Positions 21,998 to 59,947 of a DNA stretch of 64,000 bases are shown here, piece after piece. The position numbers and the translations under genes are program-made. Position 1 is the first letter of the stretch; each line of letters opens with the position of its first letter. Origin of the DNA: Synechococcus sp. CC9616 (GTDB lineage: Bacteria; Cyanobacteriota; Cyanobacteriia; PCC-6307; Cyanobiaceae); contig NZ_KI911558.1 of NCBI RefSeq assembly GCF_000515235.1, positions 64,554-128,553 of the forward strand, written 5' to 3'. The notes under the pieces are model-generated. The model was not told the DNA's origin. It did no database searches and was given only the letters and a program-made list of their open reading frames with translations.

Positions 21998-23722
21998 TCA
22001 GGCTAGGAGTTTCCTGGCAGATAAACGCTCTTCGGCTCTGCCGGGCTCACCCCAGCGGATCGTGCCACCACGGTGTCGAACCGTCCCTGGAGCAGCACCG
22101 GGAATTCTCTGAAGCCGGTCGGTGGGCACCATCACCACAGGGACACGGCGATTGCCGCGAGCGCGGCTGAAGTGGGCTGCAAGATCGCTTGCCAACTGCA
22201 GATCGGCCTCCTCCGGCAGTCCGCTGGAGGCCTTCAGCACCACGTGGCTCCCAGGGCATTCCTGCGCATGGAACCAGAGGTCGCCGCTCCGAGCCTGGCG
22301 CAGGCTGATCCAGTCGTTCTGGCGGTGGTTGCGTCCAACCTGAAGCAGCAACCCACCTGGACCGGTGAGTTCCAGGGGCTGTGGGACAGCGGATTGTTTT
22401 TTTCGCGCATCCTGCCGTCTTGACCGGGGATTGAGCAGGTCGTCCAATTCGTTGCAGAGATCCTCCAACGCAAGCAGCCGGGGGGGCAGATCTTCCCAGT
22501 GCGATGTGGCCAGATCGTCGATGAAGACCTCGCTGGCTTCGATGAGCTGGAGTCGTTGTTCGTGGTGCTGGATCCGTTCATTCAGAACGGCGACGGATCG
22601 CCGCAGCTTGCGGGCCCGTTGGTACAGCTTCTGAGCCTCCTGCACCTGATCTCGGCTGGGAGCCTGAAGGCAGAGCAGCGCATCTGCTTTTTCTTGAAGA
22701 GCGGCGCTGTCGGCGGTCCCGGCCAAGCGCGATTGCTGCTCTTCAAGGGCAGTCCGCTCTTTGCGGCTCCAACGCGTCAGCCGCTGCTCCACATCCTTGC
22801 GGCGTTGAATCAGGGACTTCTGCTCAAGCCGTTCTCGATACCAGGCACCCAGTGCGAGCGCCAGATTCGGGTGATCGACAGGCTGTTGATTGAGGGGCTG
22901 TTGATTGAGGGGCTGTTGATCGTCTGGTTGTCCCCAGACCCTGTAGCGGTTGTTCGGTTCGATCTGCAGCGCAAAGGCGTTGTCTCTTAGGCACCGCAGC
23001 CAACTCGTCCAGCGCTGATGCAGCTGCTGCCACTGGTCCGTGGAGATCTCCTGCACCGGTTCCCGGCCAAGCGGTCCGGCCAGCTGCTCCACCAGCGGGG
23101 GGCTGATTCCCTGATAACACTGCTGCAAAGCGGTCTTGAGAGAGACCGGCACAAGGGTGAGCCGGCGACGCCAACCATCCAGGGATTCCTCGTTGTGAGG
23201 TGGAAGGCCCTGCAACGGCGGAGGCGGAACGTAGGCATCACCGGTGCCGATGGGTCGGATGCGTGACTGGTGATCACGCACCTGTCGTCCGATCGTGACC
23301 ACTCGCCGTTGGTCATCGAGAAGCATCACGTTGCTATGGCGTCCCATCAGCTCAAGAACGAGGGACCGCTGAATGGACTCTCCCGGTCGCGCGCTGAACT
23401 GAAAGTCCACCACCCGTTCGAACCCGCCCTGCTCGATCCCCACCAGAGCCATTTGGCGCAGGCTGTGCTGCAGCTGCTGCGCCAGGGTGCTGCCGGAACC
23501 CAGACGAGCCGGTGGCCGGATCTGAACCAGTCGTGGTGCATCGGCCTGCCAACTCAGCTCCAGCCAGACCATCCCCTGCAGGGTTCGGAACCCGAGTTGA
23601 AGTGTCAGTGGGTCAGGCTGCTGGGCTTTTTCAAAGCGACCCGGCAGCAGGGAAGGCCTCAGGTCACTCAGCACAGCCCTGAGTGTGGTGAGATCCATCA
23701 TCTGAAGCGTTGCTGAGGTCAT
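21998..23722 (-). CDS. RqcH/Rqc2-type NFACT protein
   Basis: This 574-residue protein has the full NFACT layout: NFACT-N domain (about 8-130, with [15 protein letters not shown]), helix-hairpin-helix region, central coiled coil (about 290-420) and NFACT-R domain (about 450-560, with [17 protein letters not shown]). Bacterial homologues bind 60S/50S subunits with stalled peptidyl-tRNA and add C-terminal alanine tails. The position of the N-terminal DR pair needed for tailing reads E102-R103 here (GGFERVVDF). It diverges from gmk. Older names are fibronectin-binding protein or FbpA. Confidence 0.88.
22881..22925 (-). repeat. 15-bp in-frame tandem repeat inside the NFACT gene
   Basis: Two perfect copies and one partial copy of GGCTGTTGATTGAGG (forward strand) encode [15 protein letters not shown] in the segment just before the coiled coil. 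The frame is kept, so copy number can vary without inactivating the gene. Confidence 0.85.
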
Positions 23723-49859: not shown

Positions 49860-50510
49860 ATGCGAGACCATCCAATCCCCCCGGTCACCGAGCCGTTGCA
49901 ATATCGGGCGATTGGTGTCGTACGGGGCGTTTACAAGTCCAAGGAAGACGACCAGCCCACCCGGGGCATGCTCATTGATGCCAATGGCAACGAGCTGGAG
50001 ACCGTTGTGCTGGGACGGGTGCTCACCCTGATGAAGCGCCATCTGGCCATGGATGAAGCCCACCTCTGGGTTGTTTATCCGCGTTGCCGAGAAAGTGAGC
50101 ATCTCCACCTTCAGATTGCTGGGATCTGGGAGCCCAGCACGCTCTCGCCCGATCAAGACGGCGCTGAAGATCGACTGGCGGAAGGAGATGACTTCTTCTC
50201 AGTTCGAGGCGAGTTGATCTACACGAAGCCTGAAACAGGTGAACTGGTGGTCAAGATTCGCCAGCAACCCAGAGCAGACGGCAGCCGTCCGCTCCCCTTC
50301 AAGATTCAGGTGAAGGGGGATATTCCCCTTGAGCACCTGCGTCACTTCGTCAGCCTTGCGCTTCGCCGTCAGGGTCAGTCTCTGCATTTGGAAGGATTTG
50401 ATGTGATTGCTCCAATGCCGACGCGCGGGGGCAAATCCAAGGGCGGTCGAGGCCGTCAGGCCACTGGTCGTGGACCATCCATCCAACGAAGCGGTCGCGC
50501 CGGCGTCTGA
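49860..50510 (+). CDS. Conserved-looking cyanobacterial hypothetical protein
   Basis: The 216-residue protein has a compact N-terminal domain of about 165 residues (YRAIGVVRGVYKSKEDDQPTRGML in pieces, LGRVLTLMKRHL, HLWVVYPR, FSVRGELIY, LPFKIQVKG) and a basic, glycine-rich tail (GGKSKGGRGRQATGRGP) that may bind RNA. ATG 49860 is preferred over a frame start in the promoter region. Its stop overlaps the peptidase start (TGATG). No named family is recalled with certainty. Confidence 0.72.
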   Translation: MRDHPIPPVTEPLQYRAIGVVRGVYKSKEDDQPTRGMLIDANGNELETVVLGRVLTLMKRHLAMDEAHLWVVYPRCRESEHLHLQIAGIWEPSTLSPDQDGAEDRLAEGDDFFSVRGELIYTKPETGELVVKIRQQPRADGSRPLPFKIQVKGDIPLEHLRHFVSLALRRQGQSLHLEGFDVIAPMPTRGGKSKGGRGRQATGRGPSIQRSGRAGV

Positions 50511-51154
50511 TGGAGGAGGGGCAGGGCTCCACAGGGGCGCTCAGAGCGGGTGTCGCCGTCGCGCTGATCACTTGTTTGGGAGCCTTCGGGCCGGCGATTG
50601 GGATCTCTCCCGCCTGGATTGTGATTTTTGTCGGTGGCGGATTGGTTGCCTTGAGTGTCGATGCAGCCACCTGGCAGGGCATGGGTGGTCACGTTCTGGC
50701 TGAAGCGCTCCCCGGTGGTGAGGCGAGGCTGCGCAGAATCGCCGTGCATGAAGCCGGCCATCTCCTGATTGCTGAGAATGAGCAGCTTCCTGTCCAGCGG
50801 GTGATGGTGGGCACCCTGGCCTGCCTTCAGGCAGGTTTGCGCAGCAGCGGAGCAACTGAATTCAGCGTTCCAGAGAGCGTTCGCATGCCCCTTGAAGATC
50901 TTCGGCGCTGGAGCCGGGTGCTGCAGGCTGGCATCGCAGCCGAAACGGTCGTATATGGCGTGGCCCGCGGCGGCGCTGATGACCGAGCTCTGCTTGGACG
51001 TCTCTGGGGGCTTTCCGGTCACGATGTGGGCACCGCTCAGAGAGAACAGCGTCGCGCCCGTCGCGAGATTGAGCAGCAGCTCAGACGCCGTCTCCAGGAT
51101 CTTGAGATCAAGGCCGGAGATCTGCTCAGCCTCGCGCCACGCTTAATGCGATGA
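50510..51154 (+). CDS. Stand-alone M41-type (FtsH-like) peptidase without AAA domain
   Basis: The 214-residue protein has two hydrophobic N-terminal segments (about 14-50) and the zinc motif HEAGH (80-84, in IAVHEAGHLLIAEN), as in the FtsH protease domain. The rest is helical (GIAAETVVYGVARGGADDR; VGTAQREQRRARREIEQQL), like the C-terminal helices of FtsH. There is no AAA ATPase domain, so it may be a membrane peptidase of its own or an FtsH partner. It ends with the ATGA overlap described for the 14-bp repeat. Confidence 0.8.
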   Translation: MEEGQGSTGALRAGVAVALITCLGAFGPAIGISPAWIVIFVGGGLVALSVDAATWQGMGGHVLAEALPGGEARLRRIAVHEAGHLLIAENEQLPVQRVMVGTLACLQAGLRSSGATEFSVPESVRMPLEDLRRWSRVLQAGIAAETVVYGVARGGADDRALLGRLWGLSGHDVGTAQREQRRARREIEQQLRRRLQDLEIKAGDLLSLAPRLMR

Positions 51155-51206
51155 CAGAGGGCCTGTGACAGTGAACTCGTGACAGACAACTTGTGACAGT
51201 GGACCT
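51151..51206 (+). repeat. Four-copy 14-bp tandem repeat forming a chain of mini-ORFs before larC
   Basis: Four consecutive 14-base units each begin with ATGACAG or GTGACAG. The first overlaps the peptidase stop as ATGA, and units 1-3 each encode a five-codon ORF (MTEGL, MTVNS, MTDNL if the GTG is read as Met) that ends at a TGA overlapping the next unit's GTG (GTGA). The fourth unit is the larC start. The 14-base step moves the frame, so the three duplications total 42 bases. Confidence 0.9.
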
Positions 51207-52407
51207 GCACGTTGATTGCCCAACGGGCCTCGCCGGGGACATGCTCCTGGCAGGCCTCATCGATCTGGGCGTTCCCTTAGATGTGATCGAGAGCCCATTG
51301 GCTGCGCTTGGACTTAGCGGCCGGTTTCGGCTTGAGGTTCTCGAGGCGCGCAGCGGTGGCCTGAGGGGGCGGCGGGTTGCAGTGCAGAGCCTGGAGCCGG
51401 ATCCGCCGCACAGGCACTGGGCTGAGATTCGTGATCTGATCCAGAACGCGTCACTGGATCGGGACCTGCAGACGCAGGTGTTGAAGGTGTTCAGCGCTCT
51501 GGCCGAAGCCGAGGCCGCAGTTCATGGCTGTGAGGCGGACGCCGTGCATTTTCATGAAGTCGGCGCCATCGATGCTCTGGTGGATGTGGTGGGTGTGTGT
51601 GCTGCCGTGCGACACATGCAGCCGGATGTAGTCAGCTGCACCCCTCCACCAACGGGCCATGGATCGGTGCGGACAGCCCATGGTGTTCTGCCGGTGCCGG
51701 CTCCCGCCGTCCTGGAACTCGCTCGCCGCCATGCCATCCCGCTCAAGCATTCCGAAGGGTTTCCCCCCGGAGAGCTGACAACACCAACCGGTCTGGCATT
51801 GATGGCGACCCTGGCTGAGCGTTTCACGCCTCCTTCGCTCTTTGTGCCGGTTGCGGTCGGCGTTGGCCTCGGACACCGGCAACTCGACCGCCCGAACCTG
51901 TTGCGGATCTCGCGCCTGCAGGTCGATGCGGATGTGTCCTCCGGACTGCGTTGGCAACCTCTTGTGGTCCAGGAAGCCTGGATCGATGACGCCTCACCAG
52001 AGGATCTGGCTTGGTTGCTGACGCGGTTGCGGGATGCTGGAGCGGTGGATGCCGCGGTGGCTCCCCTGCAGATGAAGAAGGGACGGGCCGCCCATGCGGT
52101 GACAGCGTTGGTCAGCCCTGAACAGGCGGATTCGCTTCGTCAGGTCTGGTTGACGACGGGCTCAAGTCTTGGCCTGCGCGAACGGCAGCAGGGGCGCTGG
52201 GTTTTGCCTCGCCGCTCTGGAACCCTCACGACGGCCTGGGGCCCCCTGCGCGCCAAGCAGATGCGTCGACCGGATGGCCGCTGCAGTGTCAAGCCTGAAG
52301 CGGATGATCTTCAGCGCTTGAGCCGAACGAGTGGCCGTTCCATTGAAGAGTTGCGTCTGGCTGCTGCTTCGGTTCCCTTTGAATCCGAGGAACCATGGGA
52401 TTGGTAG
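51193..52407 (+). CDS. larC: LarC-type nickel pincer cofactor protein
   Basis: LarC inserts nickel into the pincer cofactor of lactate racemase and related enzymes. The 404-residue protein starts MTVDLHVDCPTGLAGDMLLAGLID in pieces (LHVDCPTGLAGDM), with HFHEVGAIDALVDVVG, the central HGVLPVPAPAVLEL, PPGELTTPTGLALMATL and a C-terminal PLQMKKGRAAHAVT. larA, larB and larE are not nearby. The start is the GTG at 51193; upstream in-frame codons run into a TGA at 51166. It overlaps the next gene by 13 bases. Confidence 0.92.
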   Translation: MTVDLHVDCPTGLAGDMLLAGLIDLGVPLDVIESPLAALGLSGRFRLEVLEARSGGLRGRRVAVQSLEPDPPHRHWAEIRDLIQNASLDRDLQTQVLKVFSALAEAEAAVHGCEADAVHFHEVGAIDALVDVVGVCAAVRHMQPDVVSCTPPPTGHGSVRTAHGVLPVPAPAVLELARRHAIPLKHSEGFPPGELTTPTGLALMATLAERFTPPSLFVPVAVGVGLGHRQLDRPNLLRISRLQVDADVSSGLRWQPLVVQEAWIDDASPEDLAWLLTRLRDAGAVDAAVAPLQMKKGRAAHAVTALVSPEQADSLRQVWLTTGSSLGLRERQQGRWVLPRRSGTLTTAWGPLRAKQMRRPDGRCSVKPEADDLQRLSRTSGRSIEELRLAAASVPFESEEPWDW

Positions 52408-58834: not shown

Positions 58835-59947
58835 TCAGCTTGTCGGGGCAACGCAGGCCTGAAGCTGCTGGCGCAGGGTGTCGTGTTCAAGGTCACGACC
58901 GATCAGCACAAGCTGGTTTTTTCTCTCCCCGGTCCAATCGCTGTCGTCAATGGAGAAGCGCTTGCCAGCCAGATGGAACACATGGCGTCGTTCGCTTTCC
59001 TCGAACCAAAGAATTCCTTTGGCTCGAAACACCTCTGCCGGCAGCTCATTGTCCAGAAAATTCTGAAATCGCCTCAGTCCAAAGGGCCCCTCGCTGCTGA
59101 AGGAGAGGGAGGTGAAACCATCCACGGCCAGATGGTCACTGTGTTGGTGATCGTGGTCATGTCCATGCTCATGTCCGTGATCGTGTCCGTGGGCATGCCC
59201 GTGATCTTGTCCGTGGTGTCCATGGTCATGACTGTGTTCATGGCCGTGGTCATGGTCGTGACCGTCGGAATGGTCGTGGTCGTGGTCGTGGGAATGGTCG
59301 TGGCCATGGGACGGTTCAGCCACCTTGTCCGATTCGAACAATCCAACGCTCAGCAGCAGTGGCAGGGGAACCTCTCCTTTCACAGAGTGAAGAATTCGAG
59401 CGTCGTTCTTCACCTCTCGCAGCTGCTCCTCCACGTCCTTGAGGCGTTCAGGGGAGACAAGGTCCACCTTGTTCAGCAACAAAATGTCCCCATAAATCAC
59501 CTGAGCTCGACCCACTTGCGTCTCCAGCACTGCCTGATCGAAGTTCTCTGCATCAACAAGAGTGATGATCGAATCGAGCCGTGTCTGCTCCCGCAGTTCA
59601 CTGCCGAGAAAGGTCATGGCCACCGGCAGGGGATCAGCGAGCCCGGTGGTTTCAACCACGATGTAGTCGAGTTCTCCAGGACGTGAGATCACACGATCCA
59701 CCGTTTCCATCAGCTCGTCGTTGATCGAGCAGCAGATGCAACCGTTGCTTAATTCCACCATGTCCTGTCCGGTGCTCACCACGAGATCGTTATCAATGCC
59801 GATCTCACCGAATTCATTCACCAGCACTGCAGTCTTGACGCCGTTCTGATTGCTGAGGATGTGGTTCAGAAGGGTGGTCTTTCCAGCCCCAAGAAAACCA
59901 GTGAGGATGGTGACGGGTACACCGGCTGGTGCGGTGGCTGAGGTCAT
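58835..59947 (-). CDS. CobW/COG0523 family GTPase with His-rich metal-binding loop
   Basis: This 370-residue G3E GTPase has P-loop GFLGAGKTTL (17-26), the CxCC metal motif CICCSI (70-75), ETTGLADP, NKVD (159-162) and a C-terminal CobW_C domain (GILWFEESERRHVFHLAGKR in pieces). Residues about 214-272 hold 28 histidines (HDHDHGHEH type). Such proteins act as metal chaperones, often for zinc. It lies 19 bases after the pterin dehydratase gene. The ATG 59947 start is preferred to 60013. Confidence 0.92.
   Translation of the reverse strand: MTSATAPAGVPVTILTGFLGAGKTTLLNHILSNQNGVKTAVLVNEFGEIGIDNDLVVSTGQDMVELSNGCICCSINDELMETVDRVISRPGELDYIVVETTGLADPLPVAMTFLGSELREQTRLDSIITLVDAENFDQAVLETQVGRAQVIYGDILLLNKVDLVSPERLKDVEEQLREVKNDARILHSVKGEVPLPLLLSVGLFESDKVAEPSHGHDHSHDHDHDHSDGHDHDHGHEHSHDHGHHGQDHGHAHGHDHGHEHGHDHDHQHSDHLAVDGFTSLSFSSEGPFGLRRFQNFLDNELPAEVFRAKGILWFEESERRHVFHLAGKRFSIDDSDWTGERKNQLVLIGRDLEHDTLRQQLQACVAPTS
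59132..59308 (-). repeat. His/Asp/Gly codon-rich repeat region
   Basis: This coding low-complexity region has CATGAC/CATGGC-type codons coding for the histidine-rich loop of the CobW GTPase. The forward strand reads as CCGTGGTCATG/TGGTCGTGG repeats. It can expand or contract in steps of six bases and also produces a long Val/Met/Gly shadow frame on the plus strand. Confidence 0.85.

Follow-up and report, generated by a model that had tools for sequence, protein, structure and literature searches.

The peptidase-like gene and larC of Synechococcus sp. CC9616, neighbours in the 64,000-nucleotide (nt) stretch of contig NZ_KI911558.1 analysed here (the window), are joined by a ladder of 14-nt units, in which three five-codon open reading frames (mini-ORFs) follow one another through overlapping stop and start codons. 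We propose that this ladder is a relay that preserves translational coupling from the peptidase to larC, a reading that we regard as somewhat probable. The same anatomy recurs with other unit numbers in sister genomes and at other genes.

The ladder begins at ATGA (51151-51154), where the peptidase TGA (51152-51154) overlaps the ATG of the first mini-ORF; the TGA of each mini-ORF overlaps the next GTG, and the fourth GTG (51193) is the start of larC, whose opening, unit 4, reads GTG ACA GTG GAC CTG CAC. There is an alternative in-frame GTG at 51199 (in-frame starts at -12 and -6). The start-to-start distance is exactly 14 nt three times over, and the -4 nt stop/start overlap of co-directed ORFs occurs four times, at the NTGA junctions. 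An earlier note on this DNA had described the ATGA overlap, the three linked mini-ORFs and the larC start at the fourth GTG, all of which can be read directly in the sequence. The same note spoke of four exact 14-base units; the spacing is indeed exact, but the copies are not. Of the 14 columns, only 7 never vary, six of which form one run (TGACAG), and the tails have diverged, leaving the head A/GTGACAG as all that the units have in common. Whole-unit identity is 57-79% (by eye), and Tandem Repeats Finder (TRF) reports period 14 with 2.6 copies and 78% matches.

The ladder is not a chance arrangement, as the genome-wide pattern counts rule this out: GTGACAG-N7-GTGACAG occurs twice in the 2.65 Mb one-contig genome, both times in the ladder (reversed control 0), and four RTGA at 14-nt spacing occur once, again in the ladder (controls 0). 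How the links came about follows from frame arithmetic. A duplication of 3k+2 nt from an NTGA start sets the next TGA in frame with the previous start, a duplication of 3k nt lengthens the protein, and with 3k+1 nt a start in another frame is left behind, from which reading runs on into the gene. Since 14 = 3x4+2, duplicating 14 nt from NTGA makes the stop/start links automatically; therefore, the links add no separate evidence of design, and selection link by link is unneeded.

Table 1. The ladder and its flanking genes (window coordinates)
Feature	Position	Strand	Remarks
Peptidase-like protein, 214 aa, HEAGH motif	50510..51154	+	upstream gene; TGA overlaps start of mini-ORF 1
Mini-ORF 1, ATG ACA GAG GGC CTG TGA	51151..51168	+	unit 1 = 51151-51164
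Gap, peptidase stop to larC start, 38 nt	51155..51192	+	bridged by the mini-ORFs
Mini-ORF 2, GTG ACA GTG AAC TCG TGA	51165..51182	+	unit 2 = 51165-51178
Mini-ORF 3, GTG ACA GAC AAC TTG TGA	51179..51196	+	unit 3 = 51179-51192
larC, nickel pincer cofactor biosynthesis	51193..52407	+	PF01969, E 9.4e-117; TIGR00299; NF052512

Other signals were sought at the junction. There is no RNA structure (fold z-score 0.66), no Rfam family reaches its gathering score (a single match, below threshold, is located away from the junction, at 50673-50805), and the promoter and terminator search gave nothing, with no terminator-like site. The upstream protein has no match in Pfam or NCBIfam at E<=0.001, and the label 'peptidase' comes only from its HEAGH motif and the naming in the earlier note.

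The junction in related genomes

larC was found in 32 of the 34 genomes of the genus (no match in G013 and G019), and the 30 junctions for which loci were at hand were all read. Extra 14-nt units are absent from 28 of them; G005 carries one and the window genome, G000, three. In 27 of the 28, larC opens in frame from an ATGA that overlaps the peptidase stop. This comparison across the genus, which the earlier note had proposed, bears out its idea that an original ATGA overlap was expanded by 14-nt tandem units, with plain ATGA in 27 of the 30 genomes, two units in G005 and four in G000. G005 is also the nearest genome (LarC 88-89% identical); its two units contain one mini-ORF, and their heads read NTGACG. 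The remaining one of the 28, G018, has TTGA at the peptidase stop, from which a TTG-started mini-ORF of six codons makes a 17-nt step and ends on the larC ATGA.

The wider survey covered 109 larC loci from distinct genomes (the 30 of the genus, 40 more of which two are also of the genus, and a further 39), a non-random sample drawn from the upper part of the larC matches listed, with some passed over; larC itself is present in 365 of the 400 genomes searched. The HEAGH protein stands directly 5' of larC in 99 of the 109, yet belongs to no Pfam or NCBIfam family. Among these 99 junctions, the -4 overlap is present in 69, and a further 26 contain a start in frame within -8 to +8 nt. Gaps beyond 8 nt were found in four: G000 (+38), G005 (+10), G115 (+10) and G018 (+13, to its ATG). 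Each of these gaps is spanned by mini-ORFs linked by overlap to the stop on one side and to the start on the other, G018 with the reservation given below. The chain of G000 was classified by hand, as unit 2 holds a second in-frame GTGA that confuses automatic chain counting. A scan for ATG/GTG rungs in 80 loci taken from genome contigs, partly of the same genomes, flagged none.

In G115, which is of another genus, the protein encoded upstream shares 66% identity with the peptidase over 116 aa. The 14-nt units of G115 and G000 have no sequence relationship, and the peptidase-larC junction therefore probably acquired this architecture more than once.

Other ladders and their unit number

The pattern of four RTGA at period 14 occurs in 40 of 300 genomes of the family, against 13 of 300 for the reversed control. 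Contexts were read for the matches listed, after arrays with a shorter exact period had been dropped (5 of 52). Of the 47 listed arrays that are left, 18 have a last RTG that opens 150 codons or more (two being overlapping readings of locus L270) and 15 one that opens 250 or more; in 13, the first rung is also the end of an ORF of 100 codons or longer, a figure that includes the 7-nt repeat L276 and one ladder present in two species (L125, L126). As background, 9 of 191 RTGA sites with an in-frame stop at -27 reach 150 codons in 464 kb of G000. The Fisher test against this background gives 4e-9 on 19/48, and 1.5e-7 on 16/45 without larC and L270.

These arrays often lie at the starts of unrelated genes. 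Pfam names 13 of the 15 tested downstream ORFs, larC aside (L274 and L117 have none): an AMP-binding enzyme, a creatininase, three glycosyltransferases, a metallophosphoesterase, CoaE, an M20 peptidase, an alpha/beta hydrolase, CemA, an FAD oxidoreductase, an S24 peptidase and the large subunit of a NiFe hydrogenase. All ten tested upstream ORFs, the larC peptidase uncounted, have Pfam matches as well (8/8 at period 14, 2/2 at period 17), the partners including ribosome recycling factor and proteins of diacylglycerol-kinase type, thioester-reductase type and with a TPM domain; upstream of the hydrogenase ladder is an oxidoreductase small-subunit-type protein. The units are unrelated between loci, and RTGA, which the search pattern imposed, is all that these ladders have in common. 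As a separate observation, the ladder L141 in G172 begins exactly at the stop of the ribosome recycling factor, which acts in the fate of ribosomes after termination.

Outside the family, the period-14 matches listed are mostly repeats of 7-nt units; a phylum-wide count at this period (79 of 292 genomes) was swamped by such repeats and was set aside.

The number of units differs between sister genomes, as the earlier note had supposed, at the larC junction and also at coaE, where the start is preceded by seven 14-nt units in G278 and by four in its sister G348 (L350 versus L351). Directly ahead of the array, both sisters have the TAG stop of an upstream gene. In G278, whose frames were read by hand, a 19-codon ORF is followed by three five-codon mini-ORFs, the last of which ends on the coaE ATGA; in G348 a 19-codon ORF ends directly on the coaE ATGA.

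G000 itself carries a second ladder, of three 17-nt ATGA units, at the start of an rsmE-like RNA methyltransferase gene (L186:3694-3744, contig 1 at about 563694). Elsewhere on contig 1 (1753282-1753336, L206), perfect 17-nt copies of GTGATCGACCGGGTTGG follow an open stretch of 152 codons, and the last GTG there opens 24 codons only. The window also holds tandem repeats of other kinds: overlapping 6- to 33-nt repeats of the CATGGTCATGACC type at 59152-59311, possibly a His-rich coding stretch, and a 15-nt repeat, GGCTGTTGATTGAGG, at 22881-22920 (2.7 copies, 100% matches).

Dependence on the period

As a control for the frame arithmetic, the four-unit RTGA search was run at periods 11, 13, 14, 15, 16 and 17 in one set of 151 genomes. 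Arrays whose final RTG opens 150 codons or more number 11 of 26 at period 14, 3 of 9 at period 17 and 0 of 9 at period 11 (all 2 mod 3), and 1 of 11 at period 13 and 0 of 11 at period 16 (both 1 mod 3). The 26 arrays of period 14 are what is left of 28 after L276, a near-exact 7-nt repeat, and the second reading of L270 were dropped; at period 16, 6 of 17 were dropped for a shorter exact period, and one listed match is unread. Taken together, 14 of 44 arrays at 2 mod 3 open such a frame versus 1 of 22 at 1 mod 3 (Fisher p 0.013; 0.025 without larC and L270), and the background for this control, RTGA sites that have a stop in frame no more than 45 nt upstream, is 88 of 1938 (4.5%). Arrays at 2 mod 3 are thus statistically enriched at gene starts, and those at 1 mod 3 stand at background. 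At period 17, one of three downstream ORFs has a Pfam family. Several contigs of G079 (L298, L306, L309, L315) carry related 16-nt tandem repeats of the GTGATGC...CGTGCC type, resembling a dispersed family.

The proposed relay and its alternatives

We propose the following. The peptidase and larC would originally have been coupled through a stop/start overlap, and the 14-nt start region would have been duplicated in tandem, inserting three extra copies. With each copy headed by NTGA and 14 being 2 mod 3, every insertion would create a five-codon mini-ORF whose TGA lies over the next start. A ribosome that finishes the peptidase would reinitiate, read five codons and terminate, and three such steps of -4 nt would bring it to larC, sparing it the crossing of 38 untranslated nt; insertions that broke the coupling would have been lost. 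We infer translation of the mini-ORFs and delivery of ribosomes by them, with selection against the loss of coupling as the filter on insertions. Reporter work in Escherichia coli gives the scale: in the available part of one study, a spacing of +38 nt lowered coupling by 80-90% in two gene pairs and abolished it in a third, and in two pairs termination-reinitiation needed no more of the upstream gene than its final 15 nt (PMC10666635). The gap at larC is 38 nt and each mini-ORF has 15 coding nt, so the length of a rung may be just sufficient for a ribosome to terminate on it and start again.

Several observations weigh against such a relay or against the frame rule behind it. Period 11, itself 2 mod 3, contributes 0 of 9, and therefore 14 may be favoured for other reasons; most of the period-16 arrays are supplied by G079 alone. 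At period 15, which is 0 mod 3, 7 of 33 arrays also open at least 150 codons (a part of its matches, with loci for 30 of those listed only); this period was left out of the comparison, since repeats that stay in frame inside genes can give the same result. TRF on 1.2 Mb found 4 start-spanning arrays at 2 mod 3, 1 at 1 mod 3 and 15 at 0 mod 3, and among pairs of similar RTGA units located at gene starts, 3 had period 10, 1 period 8 and 1 period 14 (larC); these local TRF and two-unit scans, in which the frame rule is not seen, are underpowered. The background for the period-14 arrays comes from one genome, and others may hold more spurious long ORFs, although the arrays at 1 mod 3 stay at background despite this. 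The coaE arrays of both sisters contain units without NTGA, and three other sister pairs have equal unit numbers, with ladder identity of 95-100% and flank identity of 93-99%. Shine-Dalgarno sequences are missing from most rungs (by eye only). G018 has an in-frame TTG at +4 besides its bridge, and the bridge itself needs a TTG start; because of this TTG, we rate the relay slightly lower. Finally, the available part of a review describes coupling studies that disagree, some with no spacing effect up to +25 nt or with coupling over longer range (PMC12548453), so the bridge may be unneeded in cyanobacteria. Overlapping pairs are fewer in this phylum than in most others, and a Shine-Dalgarno sequence precedes about 40% of the downstream starts in its overlapping pairs, according to the portion available of another study (PMC6728339).

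The foremost alternative is that the chain is a by-product of 14-nt duplications, with larC initiating by itself and the mini-ORFs of no consequence. The automatic origin of the links in any (3k+2)-nt duplication of an NTGA start speaks for it, as do the restriction of extra 14-nt units to 2 of the 30 genus genomes, the lack of RNA structure, the like divergence of ladder and flank in the three sister pairs and the small loss of coupling over +25 nt in some reporter studies (PMC12548453, as far as available). On such a neutral account, however, one would not expect all junctions wider than 8 nt to be bridged (three clear cases and G018), or arrays at 1 mod 3 to reach gene starts at the background rate only, or TGACAG to be invariant where the tails have diverged, a run with probability 0.029 that was picked after being seen. 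We consider the neutral origin possible but doubtful.

The earlier note suggested a tuning ladder; on this reading, each reinitiation step sheds ribosomes and the copy number, changing by slippage, sets the level of LarC. The differing unit numbers of sisters at larC (4 versus 2) and coaE (seven versus four) would suit it, and minigenes can change the expression of the next gene, as described for axe-txe in the part available of PMC8708949. The units, however, have diverged so far that the array looks old rather than freshly slipping, and the genes concerned have no evident common theme. Slippage or another duplication process may lie behind the changes in copy number. We regard tuning as unlikely; with the wide junctions bridged, G018 reserved, the comparative data fit the preservation of coupling at least as well. 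An extension of this idea is equally improbable: the relays would form a general, recurrent class of (3k+2)-nt minisatellites at start codons, whose copy number is a heritable translational rheostat and which would span larC, coaE, the rsmE-like gene, the gene behind the ribosome recycling factor and the hydrogenase large subunit.

GTGACAG could also be a binding site for a protein, at the DNA or RNA level, with the frame pattern incidental, and it is indeed the 7-nt head, recurring every 14 nt, that is conserved, and not the tails. This is very improbable in view of the NTGACG heads of G005, the unrelated unit of G115 and the other ladders, which share only the imposed RTGA; as a DNA-binding motif it was rejected, the head being absent from G005 and G115. 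An assembly artefact is least credible of all, as the units are non-identical, which makes a duplication error unlikely, the genome is one contig and 99.96% complete, and G005 and G115 show the same architecture with other sequences.

Comparison with known systems

Mycobacterial interspersed repetitive units (MIRUs) have units of several tens of bp and vary in tandem copy number. They are the closest known kind, and the larC ladder may be described as MIRU-like in its working, without being a member. According to the available part of a 2025 review, MIRUs insert at start codons with an inner ORF coupled to the gene at -4 nt, are dispersed and apparently mobile, and their insertion likely has minimal impact on expression (PMC12548453). 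The larC ladder likewise has a small ORF that overlaps a gene start at -4 nt, an overlap that is seen and a coupling that is predicted. It differs in its 14-nt unit and its host group, the relatives being Synechococcus and Prochlorococcus; the unit is not dispersed, GTGACAG-N7-GTGACAG being confined to one locus in the genome, and its copies are apparently local, derived from the start of the gene itself, with no sequence relationship from one locus to another.

Termination-reinitiation pairs (ATGA, TGATG) have the same -4 nt junction, of which larC has four in series; the literature pairs have one junction each, and a series of five-codon relays is absent from the available parts of PMC6728339 and PMC10666635. 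Among the best matches in the open-access literature, no title or abstract opening deals with serial start-codon relays. The axe-txe minigene is similar as a very short ORF 5' of a gene that acts in cis on translation; it differs in having two codons and no tandem overlap-linked array (PMC8708949, available part). Leader-peptide attenuators and upstream ORFs differ in that no RNA structure is tied to the larC mini-ORFs. Cyanobacterial heptamer tandem repeats are known as STRR, and 14 is twice 7; in contrast to these short tandem repeats, the larC unit lacks a 7-nt repeat, its array matching itself at only 31% of positions at a 7-nt shift.

Significance

If the relay is real, it would give a frame rule for the insertions that overlapping gene pairs survive: those of 3k nt extend the protein, those of 3k+2 nt with NTGA build a relay, and arrays of 3k+1 nt are the class that does not stand out at gene starts. 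Annotators would be warned that chains of very short cistrons may be present where a start region consists of short repeats. The natural junctions with one, two and four units at a single gene pair would also provide material for testing how ribosomes reach the next start after termination.
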